Assembly: GCF_020103725.1 (NCBI RefSeq)
Contig: NZ_JAHXBG010000005.1
Span: 186,001 to 250,000, forward strand
Direction of reading: 5' to 3'
Origin: Hyalangium gracile
Lineage (GTDB): Bacteria > Myxococcota > Myxococcia > Myxococcales > Myxococcaceae
DNA: 64,000 nucleotides
The notes under the pieces: model-generated
Databases searched by the model: none
Seen by the model: only the letters and a program-made list of their open reading frames with translations
What the model was told of the DNA's origin: nothing
Position numbers and translations under genes: made by a program
Shown here: piece by piece, positions 41,654 through 54,947 of the stretch
Position numbering within the stretch: the first letter of the stretch is position 1
How the letters are laid out: each line of letters begins with the position of its first letter

Positions 41654-42112
41654 ATGATCCTGGAACGGATGGCAGGCGCGGCACGAAGGAGCCGGACGGT
41701 GGTGGCGCTCGCCGCGGCCGCGGGAATCTGGGGCCTGGCGGTGACGGGAGGCTGTGGCACGGCGAGCGTGGAGCAGGACGACTTCCATGAGGAGGCTGCG
41801 AGGCAGCACGCGCACCTCTTGGCCACGCCAGCGGAACCTGCCGTAGGGGACGCGGGCCCCGCGCCCGACGCAGGGACAGTCCCGGACGCAGGGACAGTGC
41901 CCTATGGAGGCGAATGCCGAGCGGACTCGGACTGCGACCCCGCCGTCGCCAAGGCCGTCTGCGCCGACGATGCGGAGATGTACTGCAAGTTCCGCAGGAT
42001 GAAGGATGGCGGGCTGCCTCCCACGGGCACCTGTGCGTGCCGGCTGATCGAAATCGCGGATGCGGGGCAGACCCCCATGGATGCGGGACGCGTCGCCGAC
42101 CCCACGGAGTGA
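41654..42112 (+). CDS. Small Asp-Ala-Gly-linker protein, probable lipoprotein
   Basis: About 152 residues from ATG 41654 (an in-frame GTG at 41645 is possible; neither has a strong ribosome site). It has an Arg-rich n-region, a hydrophobic stretch and a possible lipobox (VTGGC, not fully canonical). A linker with repeated DAG motifs (GDAGPAPDAG...) leads to a small domain with six cysteines after the signal (around ECRADSDCDP, AVC, YCK and TCAC) and a tail with DAG motifs again. The spaced cysteines suggest disulfides in the periplasm or outside the cell. No family recognised. It follows parvulin gene C by 133 bp. Its last 143 bp are repeated, 5 mismatches apart, at 45623-45765. Confidence 0.7.
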   Translation: MILERMAGAARRSRTVVALAAAAGIWGLAVTGGCGTASVEQDDFHEEAARQHAHLLATPAEPAVGDAGPAPDAGTVPDAGTVPYGGECRADSDCDPAVAKAVCADDAEMYCKFRRMKDGGLPPTGTCACRLIEIADAGQTPMDAGRVADPTE

Positions 42113-42120
42113 GTCCCCTC
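41978..42120 (+). repeat. Left copy of a 143-bp direct repeat flanking the island
   Basis: Positions 41978-42120 (the 3' end of the small lipoprotein gene and the bases just after its stop) match 45623-45765 with 5 differences in 143 bases and no gaps. After the repeat the two flanks diverge. The pair encloses the immunity-like island. Confidence 0.9.
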
Positions 42121-42121
42121 T

Positions 42122-42270
42122 CCAGCCTCTTCGAAGAGGATCTGCACGCCAAGCGAGTGCTGTCGCTGGCCACGATCCCAGTGTGGAGCCTGTGCTCACT
42201 CTGGGTGCCGTACGTGCTGGGACAGCGCAGCGAAGCCCTGGTGGCGCTGGACTGGACGGACATGGACGGC
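42122..42270 (+). pseudogene. IS4-type transposase remnant, internally deleted
   Basis: The plus-strand translation reads SSLFEEDLHAKRVLSLA, then VWSLCSLWVPYVLGQRSE, then ALVALDWTDMDG. From memory of the family, these correspond to two separate stretches of the N-terminal half of IS4-family transposases (the DLHAKRVLSLA start and the WVPxVLG...VALDWTD segment that holds the first catalytic Asp). About 40 residues between them are missing, and nothing recognisable follows. No inverted repeats were found. It starts directly at the end of the left direct repeat, so a transposition event probably took part in forming the island edge. Confidence 0.6.
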
Positions 42271-42346
42271 CCGCGCCCTTTTGGTGTGCCTGAGCGATTT
42301 CATGCACCACCGCCATGGACATCAACACGCCTCGGGGCAGGCCCAT

Positions 42347-42724
42347 TCACCCAGACTCCAAGTCTTCCCCCCAATATCTTTTCGACGACACTTTGTTTCC
42401 AAATCGCACAAAGTAGTAAGGCTCGCCACGATTGAAATGCCAGAAGACATCAACCACAACGCCATGTTTCTCATCCGCTCCACGCGTGGCAACAGACTGG
42501 CCAATACGAAATCGGGGCGCAGGCTTCGGCATAAACCGTTGAGGATCGACACGGAATACCTTCTCGCCATACTCCAAAACACAGTATTGCCCATCGACTC
42601 CCGCAACGCGGAGCAATTTGCCATACGGGATCAACCTGTCCAACGCGTCAAAATCATCAGGATGAACCAGTCTCTGGTCGCGACTAGACCAAGCATAAAT
42701 GCCCCACTCACCTGGGGACACCAT
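42347..42724 (-). CDS. Small hypothetical protein, immunity-like (DUF6960-like N-terminal part)
   Basis: Protein of 125 residues from ATG 42724, chosen because GGAGG lies six bases upstream; in-frame ATGs at 42736 and 42826 lack this. The N-terminal half (WGIYAWSS...RLVHPDDFDALDRLIPYG) reminds me of the small uncharacterised DUF6960-type family, and the C-terminal half (GVVVDVFWHFNRGEPYYFV) looks like an SH3/Tudor-like strand-rich domain. Both assignments are from memory and uncertain. Base composition is lower in GC than the flanking genes. It is the last of five small minus-strand genes in the island and could be an immunity protein. Confidence 0.6.
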   Translation of the reverse strand: MVSPGEWGIYAWSSRDQRLVHPDDFDALDRLIPYGKLLRVAGVDGQYCVLEYGEKVFRVDPQRFMPKPAPRFRIGQSVATRGADEKHGVVVDVFWHFNRGEPYYFVRFGNKVSSKRYWGEDLESG

Positions 42725-42865
42725 GCCCACCTCCATCTCTCGGAGTTTCACCACGGCCCCCACTGAACGGCAGGTCGCCACATTCAACCACGCGCTCGCT
42801 TCAATCAGATAGAGCGACTTGACCACGTGTCTGTCTCGCGCAGCAGCGGGTGGACCGGTTCGCCG

Positions 42866-43040
42866 AGTCTACATGGCCACACTCCAGGGGCACCACCGTC
42901 TGGAACCGCAGGCCCTACAGCGCGCGGTAGCCCAGCGCCAGGGGGCATGCTGCTCTTCGAGAACGGCGCCCCGCGCCTGCCGGTGATCATCGGCCTCTAC
43001 CAGGCGGAGAGCGTCACCCCACGCTGCGCTGTCGTCGTCC
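42866..43040 (+). pseudogene. Frameshifted DUF6484-like fragment
   Basis: One plus frame reads RVYMATLQGHH...PQALQRAVAQRQGA up to about 42944; the adjacent frame then reads GMLLFENGAPRLPVIIGLYQ up to about 43004. Joined, these resemble the single short DUF6484 domain (…LLLFExGDPxxPxIxGLLQ), which in myxobacteria and other proteobacteria is found in proteins encoded beside type VI secretion effectors (family knowledge from memory). A one-base slip in the CAGGGGGC run would explain the shift. The rest of the parent gene is absent. This stretch fills most of the gap between two island genes. Confidence 0.5.
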
Positions 43041-43109
43041 ATCAGAGTCGTCAGCATCTTCACGAGGAGTTCAATCATGACTCCTGAGTACGGCGACCCT
43101 GCCCTCGAC

Positions 43110-43451
43110 TCACTTCAAACCGAGATCAATGAAGGCATCACGACTGTAGTAGTGGCTCAATGCCTCTACCAACTCCCCATCACTGACACTGGGCTTCTGT
43201 AGACGCGCATTCTCAACGACATCAAGGACATCAGAGGCAGGCAAGATCTCAATCAGGCCGTTTGCCTTGGCAAACTCCGGAAGTTCATTTGAGTAGATGT
43301 CACACTCGAGGATGCACCCCTCGCTATCCGCCGTCCAAGGCGGTCCACCGCGCATGTAGAGCGAATGCTCTCTTGTAAGCTCCTCGATCTCCTGCAACAG
43401 TTTTCCCAGTCTCACTAATCGCTCCGTGTTTTGTGTCGTCCTCCTCCCCAT
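43110..43451 (-). CDS. Small hypothetical protein, DUF7716-like, possible immunity protein
   Basis: Protein of 113 residues. Its C-terminal two thirds (PPWTADSEGCILEC...LPEFAKANGL...DVVENARLQKP...LVEALSHYYSRDAFIDL) match my memory of the small DUF7716-type family, whose members often sit in toxin/immunity loci. The start at ATG 43451 is uncertain: a strong AGGAAGGAGG lies just ahead of an out-of-frame ATG six bases before, and only GGAG at two bases precedes ATG 43451. No membrane segment or signal peptide, so cytosolic. The gene lies in the lower-GC island and is oriented with its neighbours. Confidence 0.6.
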   Translation of the reverse strand: MGRRTTQNTERLVRLGKLLQEIEELTREHSLYMRGGPPWTADSEGCILECDIYSNELPEFAKANGLIEILPASDVLDVVENARLQKPSVSDGELVEALSHYYSRDAFIDLGLK

Positions 43452-43603
43452 CGCTCCATGCCTCCTTCCTGATCAGGATGAAGTGTGTGCTGCACGGGTC
43501 CCGGTGACCTGTGATGCGACCGCGGAACGAGCTACATGACCCCCAACTCTGCATGCAGCGACCTTCACCGACAACCTGAGTAGGACCGGTGGCTTGCCTT
43601 CTG
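43452..43603. other. Spacer with a possible Cys-containing coding remnant
   Basis: This gap between two island genes holds no convincing gene. One minus frame reads RCMQSWGSCSSF...PCSTHFILI, a Cys-rich stretch that could be the tail of a lost gene, but I cannot link it to a family. The 3' part carries the ribosome-binding sequence for the downstream gene. Confidence 0.3.
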
Positions 43604-44281
43604 TTAGCCACTCCCAGTCTTTCGACACGCAATCAGCACTCGAGGTTTTCCCTCGTCGGCGAAGCCAAACCGAGCATCATGAACCACTTCCACCACCCCG
43701 GTGGAGGGAAACACCATGTCATCTTGCTTCATTGGGTGCTCGGGAAGCCATCTCGATGGGAATTGTACTGCGCTTTGGTACCGCTCGGGCATTTGCCTCA
43801 ACTGCTCGTTCTCCCGCAGAACAGTCTCCTCAGGAAGCACTTCCCTGCCATCAATGGACACCCTGAACCGGCCACGCCGGAACGCGACGAGACTCATATC
43901 GCCACATAGGGCAAGCCCCGCTAACGAGACCCCGCCGAAGGTTCCACCCGCGCGCCCCGTCTTCGCCCCATAGTGATCGTTGGAGATCGCCACCTTCAAG
44001 CGATCGAGCACCCCCAGCAGGTCGCCCCCGTGCCCGCTCCATTCCACATGCGCGAGCATCTCCACCAGACTCCGCGCGAGCCCCAGTTGGCCTCGATGGG
44101 GAGCATCCACCACAAAGGCCCAGACAATCCGCGCTCCTCCCATGTAAACGCCATCGACAACATCGAACACTTGCGGCGAGTCTTGCTCGGGGAACTGCAC
44201 TGCTCGCCGAAACATCCACGCATAAGACCAGGCCACGTGCCACCTCGCATAATTGGAACTAGAAGCCCGGCGGTACCTCAT
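43604..44281 (-). CDS. Hypothetical protein with weak PP2C-like pattern
   Basis: Protein of 225 residues from ATG 44281 (GAAGAG just upstream; an internal ATG at 44215 is possible). No firm family. Segments FDVVDGVYMGG, a middle AISNDHYGAK...GGTFGG, and SLAGLALCGDMSLVAFRRGRFRV follow one another in the order of PP2C phosphatase motifs (VDG...GG, GGT, SLxxxGDxxxV...RxGR), but the usual metal-binding GDSR is altered. If related, it is a degenerate, probably inactive member. It is soluble and sits in the island with the PH-like and SUKH-3 genes. Treat the PP2C link as a guess. Confidence 0.5.
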   Translation of the reverse strand: MRYRRASSSNYARWHVAWSYAWMFRRAVQFPEQDSPQVFDVVDGVYMGGARIVWAFVVDAPHRGQLGLARSLVEMLAHVEWSGHGGDLLGVLDRLKVAISNDHYGAKTGRAGGTFGGVSLAGLALCGDMSLVAFRRGRFRVSIDGREVLPEETVLRENEQLRQMPERYQSAVQFPSRWLPEHPMKQDDMVFPSTGVVEVVHDARFGFADEGKPRVLIACRKTGSG

Positions 44282-44381
44282 CGCTCTTCAACTCACGAAA
44301 GAGCATACTCGGATTCCCATCCAACAACGAACTCGCAAACACATCAGCAATAGACTTCAAAACAAAGGATCTCCTCTTGAT

Positions 44382-44837
44382 TCAGTCCGCGCGGAAGTTG
44401 CATACAGACTTGAGCACATTCCAAACGCCCATGAAGGCAGGCCCTGGCTCAAGTACGACTTCCACAGATTCACCGCCATGACTCACAATGGTGAGTCGAC
44501 TCAAGGCCAGCTTTCCTCGCGGATCCAAAACGAGATCCGCGCTCGCACGCCCCCAATCAACCGTTGCATCTGCGACCTCGCCCCAGGGGAGACTCCGGAC
44601 ATATCCGTCCTCGCTGGTTACGACCCGATCCGTAGTGATCAGAATCCACCGAGTCTCGTCTTGGAAACATGCCAGAACTGGAAGCTCTCCTGGTGCAAGC
44701 TGGGCAATCTGCAGCATATGCTGGCGCGCGGCCGCTGGAAATCTCTCAAACGCGCGAGTCCATCGGCCCTCGTGCCCGGACCGTTCAAAGATTCGCAATA
44801 GCCGGCTGGCCTTGCCCGTCTTGCTAAGCCCTGTCAT
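44382..44837 (-). CDS. Hypothetical protein with bacterial PH-like (YokE-like) domain
   Basis: Protein of 151 residues from ATG 44837 (AAGGAG eight bases upstream; longer in-frame start at 44882 lacks one). The central part, GELPVLACFQDETRWILITTDRVV...YVRSLPWGEVADATVDW, has the strand order and key residues (W-x-LTT-x-R, LPWxEI) of small bacterial PH-like domains. It is followed by two further strands and an end helix (FMGVWNVLKSVC). Such domains occur as immunity proteins and as membrane- or protein-binding modules. It precedes the 225-residue gene by 100 bp in the same orientation. Function not established. Confidence 0.6.
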   Translation of the reverse strand: MTGLSKTGKASRLLRIFERSGHEGRWTRAFERFPAAARQHMLQIAQLAPGELPVLACFQDETRWILITTDRVVTSEDGYVRSLPWGEVADATVDWGRASADLVLDPRGKLALSRLTIVSHGGESVEVVLEPGPAFMGVWNVLKSVCNFRAD

Positions 44838-44991
44838 GGCACAAACTCCTTCACCAATTCGACCGTGTCCGAGTTGATTCACCTGAACTCAGGCCCGTAG
44901 CGTCGAGCGTGGGTCGTCCATGTTTCCCCAGTTGGCCACGTGGATGACTCCCATGGACTCAATTGCGGCACCCGATCAATGGAGGAGGCAG

Positions 44992-45468
44992 CTAATATCC
45001 AGACGGGATCTCATCGTTGTTCAACTCGCGAATAGATGCGCCCGGATTCTCATTCAACAAAGAGAACGTAAACATATCATCCATGGACTTCATCACATAA
45101 ATGACGGTCCACCCCTCATGAAGCGACACCCACCGCCCATCCTCAGCCACCAAATATATCATGCCACCGGATTGCCCAATCGGGCACAACCGCCCTGGAA
45201 ACAGGGCCTTGAGATAGGGCAGTTCATCATCCTCGAACGCCCGTGCGGCGGATGTCCCATCCATACGCATCGGACGTCCGGTGACACCCCGAAGCACAAG
45301 CCCGTCAAATGACTGAAGCATCTCGAGAGCAACTGGGTGAATCGCGAACCCTTGCTTCTCGATCCTTGCCTTTGTGTCTGTGACGTCTACTCGTCGCGCG
45401 GAAGACCAACCCGACTCGCGCAGAATCGAGAGCACCCTGGAAGACACTTGTATGCGAGAATCAGCCAT
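44992..45468 (-). CDS. SUKH-3 family immunity protein
   Basis: Protein of 158 residues from ATG 45468 (GAGGG seven bases upstream; an in-frame ATG at 45525 is less likely). The N-terminal VLSILRESGWSSARRVDVT, the following G-x-x-x-HPxxxEMLQSFDGL and the late FSLLNENPGASIRELN region fit the SUKH-3 group of the SMI1/KNR4-like superfamily, which neutralises contact-dependent and polymorphic toxins by direct binding. It is the first gene of the minus-strand island. No cognate toxin gene lies next to it, so it may act against toxins from other strains or from the RHS locus elsewhere. Confidence 0.8.
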   Translation of the reverse strand: MADSRIQVSSRVLSILRESGWSSARRVDVTDTKARIEKQGFAIHPVALEMLQSFDGLVLRGVTGRPMRMDGTSAARAFEDDELPYLKALFPGRLCPIGQSGGMIYLVAEDGRWVSLHEGWTVIYVMKSMDDMFTFSLLNENPGASIRELNNDEIPSGY

Positions 45469-45571
45469 CACCAACCCTCGGAGATACAAAGAGGACGTCT
45501 TCATTTGTCCCATATTCCAAGGCACACCCTATGAGATTGTAGACGTATGACGCAACTCAAGGTTCATCTTC

Positions 45572-45757
45572 ATGCTGGCCAACGTACGCAGCGAGGAGGC
45601 GGGCCCGGTGAAGGAGCTGACCATGTCCTGCAAGTTCCGCAGGATGAAGGATGGCGGGCTGCCTCCCACGGGCACCTGTGCGTGCCGGCTGATCGAAACC
45701 GCGGATGCGGGGCAGACCCCTATGGATGCGGGACGCGTCGCCGAACCCACCGAGTGA
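45572..45757 (+). pseudogene. Chimeric remnant: parvulin-C fragment fused to lipoprotein 3' end
   Basis: An open frame of 61 codons begins with MLANVRSEEAGPVK, a copy of residues in parvulin C (41075-41116 aligns with 45573-45614). It jumps within a few bases to the C-terminal half of the small lipoprotein (SCKFRRMKDGG... to the stop), 5 mismatches from 41978-42120. About 860 bp of the source sequence are missing at the junction. There is no signal peptide, so the product would not be exported. This is a deleted second copy of the parvulin/lipoprotein pair and marks the right edge of the island. Confidence 0.85.
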
Positions 45758-45765
45758 GTCCCCTC
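45623..45765 (+). repeat. Right copy of the 143-bp direct repeat flanking the island
   Basis: Matches 41978-42120 with 5 differences and no gaps, an offset of 3,645 bp. It is directly followed by the alpha/beta hydrolase region, whereas the left copy is followed by the transposase remnant. Confidence 0.9.
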
Positions 45766-45787
45766 CCCGCCTCTCGGCCCTGGTACC

Positions 45788-45815: not shown

Positions 45816-46790
45816 ATGCACCTGGCTCTCGGCGTCCTCGCCGGCATCGTCATCCTCTTCCTCGCCTTACGACAGTGGCTGCTGCACCGGGAGAGCAGCC
45901 CTCCCGGGCGCGAGCCCTTCGACGGGGACGTCTACCGGGTGGGCAAGGCGGCGATCGCCGAGCGCCGCTGCGAGCACCCTCGCGCCACGGTCATCTGCAT
46001 GCACGGCTTCGTGGCCGACATGCGCTACTTCACGCACTACTACCGCGACCCCGATCTCCAGCTCATCCTGCTGACGAGCTGCGACTACCACGTGCCCATC
46101 ACCGAGCCGCGGTACAGGTCCGCCCCCTGGGCAAAGGAGCCGACCGCGCCGGAAGGCTCCATCGCCTATGACGCCGCCGTGCTGGTGCAGGCGCTGGAGC
46201 ACCTGCCCAGGACGAGGAACATCCGCGTCCACGGTCACTCACGCGGTGGAGCCGTCATCCTGGAGGCCGCGTCGATGCGGCCCGACCTGTTCGAGCAGGT
46301 GGAGGTGGTACTGGAAGCTCCGGTGCTCCCGCAGGCTCGTCCCTATGTGAAGACGACGGCCGTCGAGCTCTGGCTCATGGCGTTCGTCGTCCCCATGTGG
46401 CGCAGGGAGCCCATCTCCCGGCGCAACCGGGGCGCCTGGGGCCCGCTGGACAACGAGCGGAAGCGCGAGCTCATCATGGCCTTCCCGTTCAACCCCAAGC
46501 GCGTCGCCACCATGGTGTCCAACCTCCGAGAGCTCGAGGAGTGGATGCGGAAGCGCGACGCGTCGCTCTACCAGCACATCCCGCGTGGGACGGTGCTGGT
46601 CCCGGGAAAGGACCGGGTGTTGGACATGCACTCCATGCTGGAGAGCGCCCAGCGGGCGGGACCTGGGCTGAGCGTGGTGAAGCTGGACGGCTGCAGCCAC
46701 TTTCCCCTGTGGGACCGTCCAGACGCCCTGCCCGCACTGGCTGGAGCCCCCAGCGCCCAGGAAGGCGGGTTCACAGCCCGAACCGGGTGA
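45816..46790 (+). CDS. Membrane-anchored alpha/beta hydrolase
   Basis: Protein of 324 residues with one N-terminal hydrophobic segment (about 3-20), then an alpha/beta-hydrolase fold: oxyanion-hole region CMHGF (61-65), nucleophile elbow GHSRG with Ser142, probable acid Asp266 in GKDR, and catalytic His295 in CSHF. This triad fits esterases and lipase-like enzymes; the substrate cannot be read from the sequence. GGGAG lies before ATG 45816. It ends directly against the convergent EF-hand gene with no gap, so the two share a terminator region or none. Confidence 0.8.
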   Translation: MHLALGVLAGIVILFLALRQWLLHRESSPPGREPFDGDVYRVGKAAIAERRCEHPRATVICMHGFVADMRYFTHYYRDPDLQLILLTSCDYHVPITEPRYRSAPWAKEPTAPEGSIAYDAAVLVQALEHLPRTRNIRVHGHSRGGAVILEAASMRPDLFEQVEVVLEAPVLPQARPYVKTTAVELWLMAFVVPMWRREPISRRNRGAWGPLDNERKRELIMAFPFNPKRVATMVSNLRELEEWMRKRDASLYQHIPRGTVLVPGKDRVLDMHSMLESAQRAGPGLSVVKLDGCSHFPLWDRPDALPALAGAPSAQEGGFTARTG

Positions 46791-47252
46791 TCAGCGCGGG
46801 CTCATCATGAACGCGACGAACTCCTCGTAGGAGAGCTGGCCGTCGCCATCGCTGTCCCCCCGCCGCAGGCTGGCCTCGGCCTCCTGTCGGCTCATCTTCT
46901 CCCCGAGCCTCTCCATGACCTGGAGAAGCTCGTCGATCGACACGAGGCCATCGCGGTTCCTGTCGAAGGCCTCGAAGGCCTCGCGCATCTCCCCCTCCGC
47001 TCCCGTGGAGCTCATCCTTCGGCGGATGAAGGCGAGGAACTCCGAGAAGTCGATCGTCTCGTTGCCGTCGGCGTCGGCCTTGACCAGGAGGCCCTTGAGT
47101 TCCGCCTCGGTCGGCTCCTCGCCCAGACGCTCCAGCGCCTGTCGGAGTTCCTGGAGGGTGATGCGCCCATCGCCGTTCCCGTCGTGCTCGGAGAACGCCT
47201 CTCGGAGCTCGGAGACCTGATCGTCTGTCAGCTCTTCCATCGATGGCGCCAT
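46791..47252 (-). CDS. Calmodulin-like protein with four EF-hands
   Basis: Protein of 153 residues without a signal peptide, hence cytosolic. Four complete 12-residue calcium loops run D24-E35, D60-E71, D97-E108 and D133-E144, each with Asp at position 1 and Glu at 12. Loop 2 (DADGNETIDFSE) is almost the eukaryotic calmodulin loop, with Glu in place of the usual Gly at position 6. The start (ELTDDQVSELREAF), the pairing into two lobes with a charged linker (about 76-88) and the FVAFMM end also follow calmodulin. AAAGGA lies five bases before ATG 47252. Likely a calcium sensor; partner unknown. It diverges from the tetR gene across 252 bp. Confidence 0.88.
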   Translation of the reverse strand: MAPSMEELTDDQVSELREAFSEHDGNGDGRITLQELRQALERLGEEPTEAELKGLLVKADADGNETIDFSEFLAFIRRRMSSTGAEGEMREAFEAFDRNRDGLVSIDELLQVMERLGEKMSRQEAEASLRRGDSDGDGQLSYEEFVAFMMSPR

Positions 47253-47467
47253 GTCGTCCTTTCTGGCCAGGAGGACAAGATAGGTGAGTCAGCAGGCGTA
47301 CGCAGCCAGCCCTCACGGCCACGGTCACGTGCAAACAAGCCAGGCCACGTCCCAGGGATTGCAGGAGAAGGCCCCGGCACATGTACCCAAGCCCCGGCCA
47401 GGCAGACGCTCGAGCGGGCATCAGGCCCTCTGGTGGGAGGGGGATCCCGCCTGGAGGAAAAGGAGGC

Positions 47468-47504
47468 TTGCGCTGACTGACTGACCCATTTACTATTCTG
47501 GTCA
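47468..47504 (+). promoter_or_regulatory. tetR promoter and overlapping operator; leaderless start
   Basis: TTGCGC (47468-47473), a 17-base spacer and TACTAT (47491-47496) form a good -35/-10 pair. Transcription would begin within a base or two of ATG 47505, and there is no Shine-Dalgarno, so the mRNA is probably leaderless. A perfect inverted repeat TGACC-N13-GGTCA (47482-47504) covers the -10 and touches the ATG, as expected of an autorepressed TetR-family gene. Confidence 0.6.
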
Positions 47505-48104
47505 ATGAGTTCCGACCCTCGCTCAGCCATTCTCAACGCCGCCGGTGAGGTCTTCGCCCGCTTCGGCTTCAAGAAGGCCTCCATGGAGGACATTGCGCGC
47601 CGCGCAGGCGTCGGCAAGGGCAGCATCTACCTCCACTTCGAGAGCAAGGATGAGCTGTTCGAGGCATGCCTCCGGCTCTCCCAGGCGCAGGCGATTGCGG
47701 AGCTCGAGACGGTCGTGCGTCGGGCCACGACACCTGAAGACCAGGTCCGGGCGTTCATCCAGTGCAAGCTGGAGCAGACCTCGCGCATGGCGCACGGGCA
47801 GCGTCTCCAGGTCGAGACCATCTTCGAGATGGGTACGCAGGCCTTGCGCCTCATGCCCGAGCTCCAGGAGAAGGAGACGGCGCTTCTTGCGCGCATCCTC
47901 ACCGAAGGCAATGCGCAGGGAGTGTTTGCTGTCGCAGCCCCCCACCCGGTGGCCATGGGACTGGTGGAGACACTCGCGGCGTTCAGCGTCAAGCTGCTGA
48001 CGCTGGGTTCCAGTGCCCCGTTCAGGGAAGCGCTGGACGCGTACTTCGACGTCTTCATCCGCGGTCTTGTGCCTCCTCGCGGATCGCCCTCCCACAAGAG
48101 CTGA
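47505..48104 (+). CDS. TetR/AcrR-family transcriptional repressor
   Basis: Protein of 199 residues. The N-terminal helix-turn-helix is typical (ILNAAGEVFARFGFKKAS...IARRAGVGKGSIYLHF, about 9-48), followed by a helical ligand-binding domain. Such repressors release DNA when a drug or lipid-like ligand binds and often control the efflux operon beside them. Here an RND remnant and a TolC-like gene follow. The operator over its own promoter (TGACC-N13-GGTCA) and a related half-site before the RND remnant (48152-48174) support autoregulation and control of the lost pump. Confidence 0.9.
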   Translation: MSSDPRSAILNAAGEVFARFGFKKASMEDIARRAGVGKGSIYLHFESKDELFEACLRLSQAQAIAELETVVRRATTPEDQVRAFIQCKLEQTSRMAHGQRLQVETIFEMGTQALRLMPELQEKETALLARILTEGNAQGVFAVAAPHPVAMGLVETLAAFSVKLLTLGSSAPFREALDAYFDVFIRGLVPPRGSPSHKS

Positions 48105-48174: not shown

Positions 48175-48198
48175 CCGGGTCTCATTTCCTCTCGACTC

Positions 48199-49426: not shown

Positions 49427-49459
49427 TGCGGCTGGCGCCTGTATATGAGGAGCCTTGGT

Positions 49460-51748
49460 ATGAAGAGACAGGAGCGACATGGTCGTGAGCGTCACCGGAC
49501 CGCGCTTGCCGCGCTCCTGCTCGTCACGGGTGCAGCCCAGGCCGGTGCCGCCGGGCCATCGACACCCGAGACGGCTCCCCGTGCATCCACCCACGCCCTC
49601 ACCGTCGGCGGTGGAGTGTCGCTGGGCGCCTACGAGGCGGGCTTCCTCGCGTACGCCACCGCCGCCGTCCGCGCGCACGGCGTGGAGCACGTGGGTCTGC
49701 TGACGGGCACCTCGGCCGGCAGCCTCAACGTGCTGCTGGCCGTGCTCGCCGCGTGCGGCGAGGCGGCGCCCGGGCTCACCCAGTCGATCTTCTGGGAGAC
49801 GTGGATTCCCGTCGGCTTCGACCGCCTCTTCATCCCCGAGGACGTGACGCCCCTGGGCGTCTTCTCTCGCGGCTGGCTCGAGGCCCAGGCGCGCCGCATC
49901 GAGGAGGCGTGGAGCCGCGGCCTCGCCCCGACCTGTGACGTGGTGCTGGGGGTGTCGGCCACCCGCGTGGAGCCGCGCCTCGTGCACGCGGCGGGCGGGC
50001 GGCTGGCGCTGCCACGCATCGAGGAGAAGTTCGCCCTGCGCATCCAGGGCCGCGGGTGGGGACAGCCACCGCGCGTGACGAACTACACGGCCCCCGGCAG
50101 CTCGCGCCGCGAGCCGATGCTCGTCACCGACGAGCGAGGAGAGGTGGCCTTCTCGCAGGTGCGCGACCTCATCTTCGCGTCCATGGCCTTCCCGGTGGCC
50201 TTCGCACCCCAGCCGCTCGCCACGTGCGAGGCAGGCGCGACCGCCCGCCCCGGAGTGTGCCTGGCCACCGAGGCCTACTCGGCGGACTACGTCGACGGCG
50301 GCATCTTCGACAACACGCCCCTGAGACTGGCCGTGGGCCTGGCGCGCGACGGGCTGGCGCCTGGAGCGGACGGCGGCCCCCCGCGCTGGCGCGACGTGCC
50401 CGAGCCTGGCGCTCGGCGCTCTCCAACGGACGTCGCCTTCACCTTCGTGGACCCCTTCGCCACCGAGTACCCATCCGCGCCCGGCCTCCAGCTCCCCAGC
50501 GAGGCGGCTCCCCTGCCGCAGCTGCTCGGAGGGGTGGCGTCGGCCTTCGTGAACACGGCGCGCGCCAAGGAGCTCGCCCTCCTCCTGGAGGAGGAGCCGG
50601 AGATCGCCCAGCACATGGTGCAGCAGCGCCGGCACTTCCCCGCCGCGAGCGATCCCCTGACCGCCTTCTTCGGCTTCTTCGAGACGAGCTTTCGCAGCTT
50701 CGACTTCTACCTGGGCATGTACGACGCGCGGCGCTGGCTGCAGGAGTCGGACGCGGCGGGGCTCTGGCGCTTCGAGGTGCCCTCGGAGACGGGCACGGGA
50801 TGGGAGCCCTTCGCGTGCATGCGCGCGGTGTACGACGGCCTGCCGGGAGCCGAGGCGACCTGCGCGGGAGAAGGACTGGCGGACTTCCGCGTGCTGCTCC
50901 AGGTGTCGCTCGATCGGCTCTACGCCGCGTGCAGCGCCGCCGTGACCACGCCCGGCCCGCGAGACTGGAGCAACGCGCACTGCGAGCGTGCGGCATCGGG
51001 CGAGTCGCCGCCACGGGTGCCGGGACTCGCGCCAGAGCCATGGCCGGACTGGCGGCGGGAAGCGCACGAGACGGAGCACGCGCACATGACGCGGCTGCTG
51101 GGCGCCTATGGCTTCCACTTCCGCGACCTCGGCACGCCCCCCGGGCGCGGAGACCTGGCGCTCATGCGCATCCGGCAGGCCCTGGGGAGCGCCGTGCAGC
51201 GGCTCGCCGAGGCGCAGCCCAGAGAGAGCGCCGGTGCGGTGCAGTTCGCCGGCAAGCTCATCGCCGACAGCGTGGCCTACGCACCTCCGCGAACCGTGCT
51301 GCACCTGGCGATGGGGCCCACCCTCACCGAGCTGGGCTCGAGCATCGGCAGCGATGCATCGGCGATTCCCCCGGGGCTTCGGCTCACCGGCGCCCTCGGC
51401 CTGCGCGGGCTGCAGCGGGTGTTCTCCTCGGGCGGTGGCGAGCCCTTCGCCGTGGCCGCGGTCGCGGGTCCCGAGCTCCGCCCACTGGCGCTCCAGAGTC
51501 CGCTCGCGCAGGCGCTCTTCGCGCTGCGAGGCGGCTGGCAGTTCAGCACGCGGGGCTCCGCGAGCGAGCAGGACTGCGCCTCCGAGGGAGTGAGCTCGTG
51601 CTCACGGCCGGTAGCCCAGGGGCTCGTCGGAGTGACGCTCCTGGCGAGCCTCCGCGTGCAGCTCATCGGTGAGTGGTATCCGCCTTTCGCGGGACACCGG
51701 GGGCTGTGGGCCATCGCTCCGGGCATCGGCGTGGAGCTCAGTCCCTGA
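49460..51748 (+). CDS. Patatin-like phospholipase, exported
   Basis: Protein of 762 residues from ATG 49460, chosen over ATG 49445 because GAGGAG lies seven bases upstream. A signal peptide (about 1-30, Ala-rich h-region) is followed by the patatin domain: glycine-rich oxyanion loop GGGVSLGAYEAG (50-61), nucleophile in GTSAG with Ser85, and catalytic Asp279 in the DGG motif. The Ser-Asp dyad predicts lipid acyl hydrolase activity. The C-terminal ~120 residues have alternating strand-like pattern (ALFALRGGWQF..., VGVTLLASLRVQLIGEW) and could be a small outer-membrane beta-barrel or surface domain; this is inference. The gene follows the TolC-like gene by 33 bp but need not belong to it. Confidence 0.87.
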   Translation: MKRQERHGRERHRTALAALLLVTGAAQAGAAGPSTPETAPRASTHALTVGGGVSLGAYEAGFLAYATAAVRAHGVEHVGLLTGTSAGSLNVLLAVLAACGEAAPGLTQSIFWETWIPVGFDRLFIPEDVTPLGVFSRGWLEAQARRIEEAWSRGLAPTCDVVLGVSATRVEPRLVHAAGGRLALPRIEEKFALRIQGRGWGQPPRVTNYTAPGSSRREPMLVTDERGEVAFSQVRDLIFASMAFPVAFAPQPLATCEAGATARPGVCLATEAYSADYVDGGIFDNTPLRLAVGLARDGLAPGADGGPPRWRDVPEPGARRSPTDVAFTFVDPFATEYPSAPGLQLPSEAAPLPQLLGGVASAFVNTARAKELALLLEEEPEIAQHMVQQRRHFPAASDPLTAFFGFFETSFRSFDFYLGMYDARRWLQESDAAGLWRFEVPSETGTGWEPFACMRAVYDGLPGAEATCAGEGLADFRVLLQVSLDRLYAACSAAVTTPGPRDWSNAHCERAASGESPPRVPGLAPEPWPDWRREAHETEHAHMTRLLGAYGFHFRDLGTPPGRGDLALMRIRQALGSAVQRLAEAQPRESAGAVQFAGKLIADSVAYAPPRTVLHLAMGPTLTELGSSIGSDASAIPPGLRLTGALGLRGLQRVFSSGGGEPFAVAAVAGPELRPLALQSPLAQALFALRGGWQFSTRGSASEQDCASEGVSSCSRPVAQGLVGVTLLASLRVQLIGEWYPPFAGHRGLWAIAPGIGVELSP

Positions 51749-51815
51749 ACCGTGGGACGAGGAGGGTGTGACGAACCTCGCCCTCCCCTCTGTACAGGCG
51801 TGAGAAGATGGCGGC

Positions 51816-54800
51816 ATGACGGACACGCAGCCATCGCCACCGCGTGATGGGACACCCGGCAAGAGAACCTGGCGGACATGGGTCAAGTGGTCGCTCCGTA
51901 TCGGCCTCGGGCTGATCGCGGTCGTCACCATCGCGGCGGGCATCGCTGCTGGGATCGTCTGGATGCGGCTCCAGGCGGTCATGAAGCCATCCGACTTCCG
52001 ACCGGAGCAGCCGCTCTCCGCGTTCGTCGATGAGGCGCCCCCACAACGAGCCTCACCGCCACCTGCGGCACCGTTCGAGTGGAGCGCCATCGACACGCCG
52101 CCGCGAACCGCGATGCCGTGGACCCGGTGGTGGTGGCCCGGTGGCGATGTCGAGGCCCAGGAGCTGCGGCGCGAGCTCGAGGAGCTGCGCGCGGCCGGCT
52201 TTGGCGGAGCCGAGGTGCAGCCGTTCGCGATGAACACCAGCGGCGTGGTGAAGGACGACACCAGCGCGCGGGAGCGCGTCTTCTCCGTCGATACGCCACG
52301 CTACTTCGCCCTGCTCCGCGGGATGCTGGAGGATGCCGACAAGCTCGGTCTCCAGATCGATCTGTCCCACTACAGCGGGTGGCCGGCGGGCAGCCCCGTG
52401 GTGACTCCCGCCGAAGGACTCCAGACCCTGGCCTGGAGCGAGCATTCCTTCAGCGGGGGGCGGCGCGTGGATCTGGAGATCCCGCGGCCCACTCCCGGAC
52501 TGAACACCTACGCCTCCGCGATGCTCGGCATGTTCCTGTTCGAGGGGGACTTCGCGGACTTCGACGCGGCCAGCGCGCGGCTGATGAGCGTCGTGGTGGC
52601 GCGGCCGCTCGGAGGAGGCCACAGCCGCTTCTCGCTCAGCGACACGCTCCGGCTGGATCCCGCCAGCGTCCAGGTGGTCGACGGTCAGGTGCGCGATGGC
52701 CGGCTGTCCTGGGATGCCCCCGAGGGCGACTGGGTCCTCGTGGCCTCGTGGCTGCTGCCGACCGGGGAGCAGCCGTCCCTGGCTGCCTTGAACCCTCCGG
52801 GGTACGTGCTCGACCTGCTGCGCGGTGACATGACTCTCGCGCACTACAACTACGCCTTCGGCGCGCGCACCGGGCTGCCGCCGTACTACGGAAAGTCGCT
52901 GCGCGGCATCTTCAACGACAGCTACGAGTACAAGATCGACCGCCTCGGCTCGATCGACATCCTGGACGAGTTCCAGCGCCGGCGCGGCTACGACCTTCGC
53001 CCGTACCTTCCCGCGATCTATGTCGACGGGGCGGACAACTGGCCCATGAACGAGTTTCTGCCGCCCCGCGCGCCGAGCTTCACCCTGAGCGACCTCGACC
53101 CCCGCGTCCGCTACGACTACCAGCTCACGCTCTCGGACCTGGTCATCGAGCGCTTCGGCGATCCATCGCGCGAGTGGGCGGAGGCGCGCGGCCTGCTCTC
53201 GCGGCAGCAGAGCTACGGGCTGGACCTCGACATCCTCCGCGCCCAGGGAAGCAACCACATCCCCGAAACCGAGCAGCTCTACGCGGGTGGCACTCGCGAG
53301 TTCTTCCGCATGGCGTCGTCCGCGGCGCTGCTCTACGGCCGCCAGCTGGTGAGCTCTGAGTCCTTCGTCTGGGCGGGACTGGACTACGCCGTCGATCCCT
53401 CCATGCTCAAGGCGGCGGCCGACCAGCTGCTGGTGTCTGGCGTGAACCACATCATCTACCACGGGTTCCCATACGACTGGCGCAGAGAGGAGCGCGAGGC
53501 CCTGTTCGGGGAGGCGGGGTGGAACCCATGGTCGTCGCCTTCGAACCCCTTCGCGCTCTTCTCCGGGAACTACTCACCTCGTGCTTCGCTGTGGGAGGAC
53601 ATCCCGGCACTCAACGCGTACATCGGGCGCGCACAGCACCTGCTGAGGCAGGGGCAGCCGGTGGCGGACGTGCTCATCTACTACCCGTTCCTCGGGTACC
53701 GCTCGCTGGGGTACGGACAAAGCGAGGCGCACCTCCCACTCATCGGCGGCACCTTCCCCTTGAGCAACCCAGCGGGGTTCGCCCCGGACCCGGGCCCGAG
53801 CAGCGAGACGGTGGACGAGCGCATCCAGTGGCTGCGGCGCGTCCGGCCGCTCCTCGATGAGCTGGACCGTCGAGGGCTGACCTGGAGCTGGGTGAACGGG
53901 GACGCGCTCCACAGCCGCCTGCTGCCCGGGGGACAGATCCAGGGGGGCGCGACCTACGGCGCCATCGTCTTCCCGGAAGTCGAGGCAGTGGCGCCGGAGG
54001 ATCTCGCGGCAGCGCGTACGCTCCAGAGCGGAGGCGTGCCGGTGTTCATTCTTGGCCCCCCGCCCCGCCGGCAGCCGGGACGCCACCAAGCAGCGGAGGG
54101 GGACGCACGCGTCCAGAGCCTGGCGAGAGACATCCTGGCCGGGCAGCCGGCGCTGACCAGCCCTGGCGCGCTCGCGGATGCGCTCGCGGCCCGGCCGGGT
54201 CCGTCACTCCGCTTTGCGTCCGCGAGTCCGCTCTGGCGGCAGGGCCGTCGCCTCGAGGGCGGGGGCCACATCGACTTCCTCGTCAATCCGACCTCGGAGC
54301 CCCAGTCCGTGGTTCTCCAGGCAAGCGAAGGGAACACGGCCTGGTGGTTCGATGCAGCTACCGGTGGCGCCACTCCGGTGGCGACGGACAGCCAGGGAGG
54401 GCTGCGGCTCGCGTTGCAGCCGTATGAGTCGCGGTTCCTCATCCGTGGTATCCCCATGCCACAGCGCCTCGCTCGCCCCGAGGTGAGTGCCCACCTCGGC
54501 TCGCGAATACTCAATACGTGGGCCTTGCCGCAGTGGTCGCTCTCGGTCGGGCAACAGAGCCGGAGCTCCGGACTCATCGACTGGCGTCAGGACGAGGCGC
54601 TGCGTCACGAGAGCCAGGCGGGAGTGTACCGCGCGACCTTCGATGCTCCGGCCCTGTCCGAGGGCTCGCGCTACATGCTGGACGTCGGGCCTGTTCCTGG
54701 AATGGCTGCCGTCCGGGTCAACGGGGTGGCTGTGGGCCGCGTCAGCCTCCCACCCTGGCGCATCGACATCACCAGCGCGCTCCGGGCGGGGAGCAACGCG

Positions 54801-54947
54801 CTCGAGATCGAGTATCGGCCCTCGTCCCGCAACGCGATGATCAAGCGTGCGATCGATGGCGACCCGCGCATGCAGCACTTCCTCGAGCGCAAGGACGGCC
54901 TGGTCCCCGCAGGCCTCCGCGGTCCCATCCGCATCGTCGAGATGTGA
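51816..54947 (+). CDS. GH106-type alpha-L-rhamnosidase, membrane-anchored
   Basis: Protein of 1,043 residues. A short cytosolic N-terminus and one transmembrane helix (about 27-50) are followed by a large glycosidase. The start of the catalytic part, PWTRWWWPGGDVEAQELRRELEELRAAG, and the later LSHYSGWPAG and HIIYHGFPYD segments are characteristic of family GH106, which removes alpha-L-rhamnose from polysaccharides. The C-terminus (about 890-1040) is a jelly-roll domain (YRATFDAP...VRVNGVAVG...NALEIEY). I could not place the catalytic glutamates with certainty. It would act on the outer side of the inner membrane. Its position beside a polysaccharide cluster suggests trimming of a rhamnose-containing glycan, an inference. 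Confidence 0.8.
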   Translation: MTDTQPSPPRDGTPGKRTWRTWVKWSLRIGLGLIAVVTIAAGIAAGIVWMRLQAVMKPSDFRPEQPLSAFVDEAPPQRASPPPAAPFEWSAIDTPPRTAMPWTRWWWPGGDVEAQELRRELEELRAAGFGGAEVQPFAMNTSGVVKDDTSARERVFSVDTPRYFALLRGMLEDADKLGLQIDLSHYSGWPAGSPVVTPAEGLQTLAWSEHSFSGGRRVDLEIPRPTPGLNTYASAMLGMFLFEGDFADFDAASARLMSVVVARPLGGGHSRFSLSDTLRLDPASVQVVDGQVRDGRLSWDAPEGDWVLVASWLLPTGEQPSLAALNPPGYVLDLLRGDMTLAHYNYAFGARTGLPPYYGKSLRGIFNDSYEYKIDRLGSIDILDEFQRRRGYDLRPYLPAIYVDGADNWPMNEFLPPRAPSFTLSDLDPRVRYDYQLTLSDLVIERFGDPSREWAEARGLLSRQQSYGLDLDILRAQGSNHIPETEQLYAGGTREFFRMASSAALLYGRQLVSSESFVWAGLDYAVDPSMLKAAADQLLVSGVNHIIYHGFPYDWRREEREALFGEAGWNPWSSPSNPFALFSGNYSPRASLWEDIPALNAYIGRAQHLLRQGQPVADVLIYYPFLGYRSLGYGQSEAHLPLIGGTFPLSNPAGFAPDPGPSSETVDERIQWLRRVRPLLDELDRRGLTWSWVNGDALHSRLLPGGQIQGGATYGAIVFPEVEAVAPEDLAAARTLQSGGVPVFILGPPPRRQPGRHQAAEGDARVQSLARDILAGQPALTSPGALADALAARPGPSLRFASASPLWRQGRRLEGGGHIDFLVNPTSEPQSVVLQASEGNTAWWFDAATGGATPVATDSQGGLRLALQPYESRFLIRGIPMPQRLARPEVSAHLGSRILNTWALPQWSLSVGQQSRSSGLIDWRQDEALRHESQAGVYRATFDAPALSEGSRYMLDVGPVPGMAAVRVNGVAVGRVSLPPWRIDITSALRAGSNALEIEYRPSSRNAMIKRAIDGDPRMQHFLERKDGLVPAGLRGPIRIVEM

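Follow-up and report, generated by a model that had tools for sequence, protein, structure and literature searches.

A gene for a calmodulin-like protein of eukaryotic type in the myxobacterium Hyalangium gracile

The window, a 64,000-nucleotide stretch of Hyalangium gracile DNA, contains an open reading frame for a calmodulin-like protein, P0001, that begins with an ATG at 47252 and whose stop codon ends at 46791. The position, length and strand given in the first-pass annotation were exact (Table 1). All 11 Pfam matches of P0001 are to EF-hand or EF-hand-related models and describe four EF-hands in two pairs: EF-hand_1 matches four stretches and EF-hand_7 two (E 1.7e-34), with P0001 just above the cut-offs of the AIF-1 and SPARC_Ca_bdg models. 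The protein has neither cysteine nor tryptophan, carries a net charge of -19 and contains no hydrophobic segment (top 19-residue Kyte–Doolittle hydropathy 0.23); from its sequence it looks soluble. A scan of positions 46700–47600 found no sigma-70-like promoter sites. Membership of the XopAW family of effectors (NCBIfam NF041410) was considered and rejected, with a score of 65.2 bits against a curated cut-off of 120. Judged by its sequence, the gene is real, intact and unusual for a myxobacterium, in that its product is of the eukaryotic calmodulin type.

Table 1. The calmodulin-like gene of the window, its sequence features and the adjoining genes.
Feature	Position	Strand	Remarks
CDS, calmodulin-like protein P0001, 153 aa	46791..47252	(-)	ORF list and Pfam; ortholog 81% identical in L004
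Ribosome-binding site AGAAAGGA	47257..47264	(-)	separated from the ATG by 4 nt; same sequence in the L004 ortholog
EF-hand loop 1 DGNGDGRITLQE	47148..47183	(-)	residues 24-35
EF-hand loop 2 DADGNETIDFSE	47040..47075	(-)	residues 60-71
EF-hand loop 3 DRNRDGLVSIDE	46929..46964	(-)	residues 97-108
EF-hand loop 4 DSDGDGQLSYEE	46821..46856	(-)	residues 133-144
Alpha/beta hydrolase, 324 aa	45816..46790	(+)	convergent neighbour; at E 1e-20 in 1 of 7 genus genomes
TetR regulator	47505..48104	(+)	divergent neighbour, beside efflux genes; ortholog (77%) in G006
blastn match to the 12.5-kb locus L004	46785..47270	(-)	sole match of the window; 86.6% over 486 bp

Because none of the other six genomes of the genus has the neighbouring hydrolase gene at E 1e-20, it is not a conserved partner. 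Nothing in the locus of genome G006 that holds the TetR ortholog matches the calmodulin gene. Comparison of that locus (L048) with the window shows that about 4.06 kb is absent from the window at 48195/48196: G006 has an apparently whole TetR gene, adaptor gene and RND pump gene, whereas in the window the adaptor and pump genes are nearly all gone and only the pump's end is kept (a PF00873 match). The outer-membrane gene of G006 seems about 330 bp shorter than its counterpart in the window. Beyond the broken efflux genes, genes for a patatin-like phospholipase and a GH106 rhamnosidase-like protein occupy 49445–54947. On the other side, the region 41978–45768 is low in GC (about 0.59) and carries DUF6960, DUF7716 and SUKH-3 immunity-type open reading frames between direct repeats of 146 bp that are 96% identical and lie 3,645 bp apart from start to start, as if the segment had been inserted or duplicated.

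A second, diverged copy of the calmodulin-like gene lies in locus L004 of genome G002, which is the Myxococcaceae MAG Zod_Metabat.575 (100% over 3,459 bp). It is flanked by a macB-like gene on one side and by a hypothetical gene close to larB on the other; larB, larC, macAB and tolC are, like the adaptor and pump of L048, names assigned by reading the translations. What the two loci have in common is the coding sequence, 18 nt upstream of it that include AGAAAGGA and about 6 nt downstream. No conserved operon, partner or shared neighbour gene was seen between the window and L004, and the 60 or more short scattered tblastx matches between them are ascribed to high GC. An outer-membrane efflux gene lies near both copies (a PF02321 match in the window, a TolC-like open reading frame in L004), the efflux genes at the two sites being of different types. 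In the six other genomes of the genus, G000 included, the calmodulin gene finds no match within the 10 kb beside larB.

The synonymous divergence between the two copies (dS 0.30) is close to that of the larB-like gene of the same genomes, our one control gene (0.24), and dN/dS is 0.33 as compared with about 0.11 for larB. These values fit a gene that is old in the lineage and under purifying selection weaker than that on larB. Because dS is near that of larB, dN/dS is 0.33 and the sites differ, a single acquisition before the two lineages split, followed by relocation and maintained by purifying selection, would fit the data. The gene may instead have passed between the two lineages around the time of their split, or have been gained twice from near relatives.

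Full-length copies are rare. Six exact 8-residue patterns, which more distant relatives would escape, were run against 84,980 species genomes; they matched 81 stretches and revealed one relative, the 81% identical protein of Zod_Metabat.575; the chromosomes of other phyla were covered by this exact-pattern scan only. At E 1e-8, matches occurred in 3 of 96 genomes of the family and 4 of 195 of the phylum, where up to 19 candidates were scored per phylum genome. With the same number scored, full-length copies were confined to G000 and G002, that is two of the seven genus genomes and two of the 195 phylum genomes, and the remaining matches reached 38–40 bits. Relaxing the threshold to E 1e-3 gave EF-hand matches in 18 of 59 relatives, those outside G000 and G002 being weaker and partial. 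P0001 had no match at 1e-5 among 72,556 plasmids or among phages, and no viral contig was found. When plant calmodulin was the query, 13 of the 72,556 plasmid records matched, at no more than 32% identity and 57 bits. We also considered derivation from the other EF-hand match of the same genome (C26), which finds no support: the two align at 27% identity over 66 residues (25.7 bits).

The GC3 of the gene is 0.89, and that of five nearby genes 0.83–0.92, which again fits a gene long resident in this lineage. Contamination by eukaryotic DNA is disfavoured because GC3 is host-like, the flanking genes are bacterial and a diverged copy is present in a second genome.

The side-chain ligand positions are canonical in all four loops, which together with the Pfam matches bears out the four canonical EF-hands of the first-pass annotation. 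Its further statement that one loop is almost that of eukaryotic calmodulin is right to the extent that loop 2 has 10 of the 12 residues of the plant and animal loop DADGNGTIDFPE, but glutamate replaces glycine at position 6. The charged linker described there is likewise partly present: RMSSTGAEGE is less charged than KMKDTDSEEE of calmodulin and contains two glycines. The spacing of the hands, 36, 37 and 36 residues, is that of calmodulin. P0001 aligns without gaps over 146 residues with Arabidopsis CaM7 (PDB 4aqr; 51% identity, 155 bits), which was the best calmodulin other than fusions among the PDB matches listed. The search of PDB sequences gave 561 distinct matches, and the 60 listed comprise calmodulins, calmodulin fusions or sensors and one calmodulin-related protein. 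Both copies keep 28 of the 36 columns that are invariant among six calmodulins, troponin C and centrin.

The sequence supports the two lobes proposed earlier, as does a moderately confident AlphaFold2 model (two sequences; pLDDT 73, pTM 0.45), in which eight helices and four short strands follow in the expected order. Calmodulins, calmodulin sensors and a calmodulin-like protein make up the first 36 of the 50 Foldseek matches listed. The TM-scores over the whole length are 0.34–0.47 for the 50 matches listed, and the whole-length rmsd is poor because the lobes are placed differently, an arrangement on which the model is no guide. Single lobes superpose on those of calmodulin at about 2.2–2.4 Å with Z about 12, values that unrelated helical proteins can also reach.

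With units of 27 residues, the same-numbered hand of plant or animal calmodulin scored best in 16 of 16 comparisons for P0001 and its ortholog. The exception came with 29-residue units, where EF1 of P0001 favours EF3 of Chlamydomonas calmodulin, 63 to 61; EF1 and EF3 score 68 against each other within P0001, and 68–73 within plant, algal and animal calmodulins. The gapless four-hand score of P0001 against Arabidopsis calmodulin is 339. The native order of the hands ranks first among all 24 permutations, the runner-up scoring 286. Four-hand sequences assembled at random from 40 EF-hand units of related bacteria score 97 ± 30 (maximum 203 in 20,000), the assembly of the best bacterial unit for each hand 219, and versions of P0001 with shuffled helices and intact loops 109 ± 19 (maximum 182 in 5,000). 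On the same scale troponin C (362) and yeast calmodulin (354) score higher than P0001, centrin the same (339) and a CDPK lower (253). The scores for hand order and assembly and the invariant columns kept therefore identify P0001 as a full-length homolog of the calmodulin, troponin C and centrin group. With four hands in two pairs at calmodulin spacing, colinear and in congruent order, its sequence is that of a member of this superfamily, and the convergence that the first-pass annotation had allowed for is strongly disfavoured by the permutation, random-assembly and helix-shuffle controls.

In the best trees of three panels, P0001 and its ortholog group with two plant calmodulins, with support of 80/99, 88/99 and 97/99. 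The first of these trees included calsymin-like rows and omitted bact_L007 and bact_L029, the other two were built with all calsymin-like rows left out, and the last also lacked calcineurin B. The plant grouping is carried by just these two, nearly identical, plant calmodulins, and Chlamydomonas calmodulin falls outside it. Calmodulins plus the P0001 pair form a group with support of 70/82, in which the branch to the pair is long, at about 1 change per column. Because the panel lacked plant CMLs and bacterial proteins of other phyla and held few protist proteins, the donor cannot be named.

The AU test rejected a grouping of the pair with troponin C (p 0.035). It did not reject groupings with yeast calmodulin (p 0.127), centrin (p 0.153) or CDPK (p 0.070). 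Monophyly of the eukaryotic calmodulins without P0001 gave p 0.057, and of calmodulin and troponin C without P0001 p 0.182. The phylogeny that the first-pass annotation had proposed as a check does not place the pair with calsymin-like proteins in the best tree, but neither is that placement rejected (p 0.173).

Residues peculiar to calmodulin are kept by P0001 about as often as by troponin C and centrin, and less often than by yeast calmodulin. P0001 keeps 5 of 18; the corresponding counts are 6 of 26 for centrin, 9 of 30 for troponin C and 9 of 18 for yeast calmodulin. These counts use two of the three CDPK rows, and that for P0001 becomes 3 of 16 with all three. When CDPK and calcineurin B alone serve as outgroups, the number kept is 18 of 53 for P0001 and rises through centrin (20) and troponin C (23) to 31 in yeast calmodulin. 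P0001 is 49–51% identical to the calmodulins of plants, algae and animals, a range like those of centrin (50–57%) and troponin C (49–54%). Since P0001 is as distant from calmodulin as centrin and troponin C are, ‘calmodulin-like of eukaryotic type’ is a safer description than ‘a calmodulin’, and, given the AU values and the few calmodulin-only residues, the sequence alone is no proof that a calmodulin was captured.

The gene transfer from a eukaryote suggested by the first-pass annotation is thus the best-supported origin, by the best trees, the two carriers among 195 genomes and the absence of close matches on the plasmids searched, but it is unproven, given the AU values of 0.136–0.263 and the rates at which calmodulin-only residues are kept. 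We favour capture because of the best trees and the patchy distribution, and consider it reasonably probable that P0001 goes back to a eukaryotic donor and serves the cell as a soluble sensor of calcium, a role for which calcium binding, clients and signalling are predictions.

The strongest competitor, which we regard as unlikely, is that P0001 belongs to an uncommon bacterial lineage that lies outside the eukaryotic calmodulin, troponin C and centrin group, near the bacterial stock that gave calmodulin to eukaryotes. Such a position is compatible with the AU test, whether the pair is placed with calcineurin B outside all other eukaryotic proteins used (p 0.136) or the calmodulin, troponin C and centrin group is made to exclude P0001 (p 0.193; when calcineurin B is left out, 0.263), and with an identity to calmodulins similar to that of centrin and troponin C. 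A published comparative study infers a bacterial origin for calmodulin, with its closest versions in actinobacteria, cyanobacteria, proteobacteria and verrucomicrobia (PMC7016017). Against it, the best tree in all three panels puts P0001 beside plant calmodulin, full-length copies are as scarce in the phylum as described above, and plasmid-borne matches to plant calmodulin are distant. A bolder version, in which the eukaryotic group as a whole has its bacterial sister in P0001, the survivor of a pre-eukaryotic, two-lobe sensor with four hands, is likewise not rejected by the AU tests but seems to us less likely again.

If the gene was captured, an ancestor of a small myxobacterial lineage would have taken up a eukaryotic gene for calmodulin or a calmodulin-like protein. 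The gene, now intron-free, would have adopted host codon use and a bacterial ribosome-binding site, and purifying selection would have kept it while its chromosomal position shifted. A rise in cytosolic calcium would load the four EF-hands and open each lobe, and the pockets thus exposed would grip helices of client proteins, so that P0001 would work as a calcium sensor relay. Lobe opening and the gripping of clients are predicted by analogy with the established behaviour of EF-hand sensors with two lobes.

The positions that form the target pockets of calmodulin are partly conserved: F16, F68, F89, F92, F141, M109 and M145 (calmodulin numbering) are kept, and F12L, F19H, M36L, M51L, M124S and A128G are changed in both copies. 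Such remodelling of the pockets, with His for F19, Ser for M124 and Leu or Phe for several Met, makes it probable that P0001 serves proteins of the bacterium itself rather than the clients of eukaryotic calmodulin, and the presence of the same changes in both copies suggests that these different clients are settled. With 150 candidates scored per genome, no IQ-motif client was found in either carrier (from 207 candidates in G000 and 159 in G002), and three of the five non-carriers had one match each. The true calcium signalling in the cytosol suggested by the first-pass annotation goes further than these results, and the lack of a neighbour gene common to both loci, allow. The Na/Ca exchanger domain PF01699 is present in both carriers and in G006 and absent from G001, G003, G004 and G005, a contrast with too few genomes behind it to carry meaning.

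That P0001 is a calcium buffer, or an exported protein such as a calmodulin mimic aimed at eukaryotic prey, rather than a sensor of the cell's own calcium, we hold decidedly unlikely. Myxobacteria are soil predators (PMC10574481), outer-membrane efflux channels can serve export, and such a gene lies near both copies; the carriers also gave no IQ match among the candidates scored. Yet P0001 lacks a hydrophobic stretch resembling a signal peptide, its calmodulin pocket residues are partly altered and nothing positive speaks for export. The remaining idea, that an ordinary bacterial calsymin-like or two-hand EF-hand protein converged on calmodulin, is very improbable: five-hand and two-hand EF-hand proteins do exist in the bacterial family and the AU test finds a clade shared with calsymin-like proteins not significantly worse, but the excised hand regions of other myxobacterial EF-hand proteins score 39–56 bits against P0001 where Arabidopsis calmodulin scores 155, random and best-pick assemblies of bacterial hands fall well short of the four-hand score of P0001, and the spacing in five-hand proteins is 35, unlike that of P0001 and calmodulin.

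Several bacterial proteins have been called calmodulin-like, among them calsymin, calerythrin, the Cab proteins of Streptomyces and fused or few-hand types (PMC7016017, PMC10574481, PMC13171946). Among the titles and abstract openings of the literature found, none dealt with a myxobacterial calmodulin or with a bacterial one gained by transfer; the word calmodulin occurs once in a paper on myxobacterial PilY1 (PMC13190605). The present gene runs the full length of the eukaryotic protein and is colinear with it, and two genomes have it intact and under selection. Whether a relay of this kind can be plugged into a bacterial cell, and which clients it takes on, can be asked here in a tractable system, and the gene also provides a point at which ideas on how calmodulin arose can be tested.

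The calsymin-like proteins of related myxobacteria (L008, L009, L023, L024, L026 and L027), so called after Rhizobium calsymin, share canonical EF-hand loops with P0001. They differ in having five hands in open frames of 301–547 aa, rather than four in 153 aa, and score 39–51 bits against it; in all six the last four hands are spaced at 35 residues and the first gap is 48. Calerythrin from Saccharopolyspora (PDB 1nya) is, like P0001, a small bacterial EF-hand protein, but the two give only short, separate matches, the best being 36 bits over 50 residues. Eukaryotic calmodulin, as represented by CaM7, shares with P0001 its length, four canonical hands, two lobes and gapless colinearity. P0001 departs from it by H19, S124, L36 and L51, by the glutamate in loop 2, by the glycine-bearing linker, by its long branch and by the few calmodulin-only residues that it keeps. 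Plant CMLs, too, have four hands and no other domains, and their divergence from calmodulin is presumably of the same order as that of P0001.
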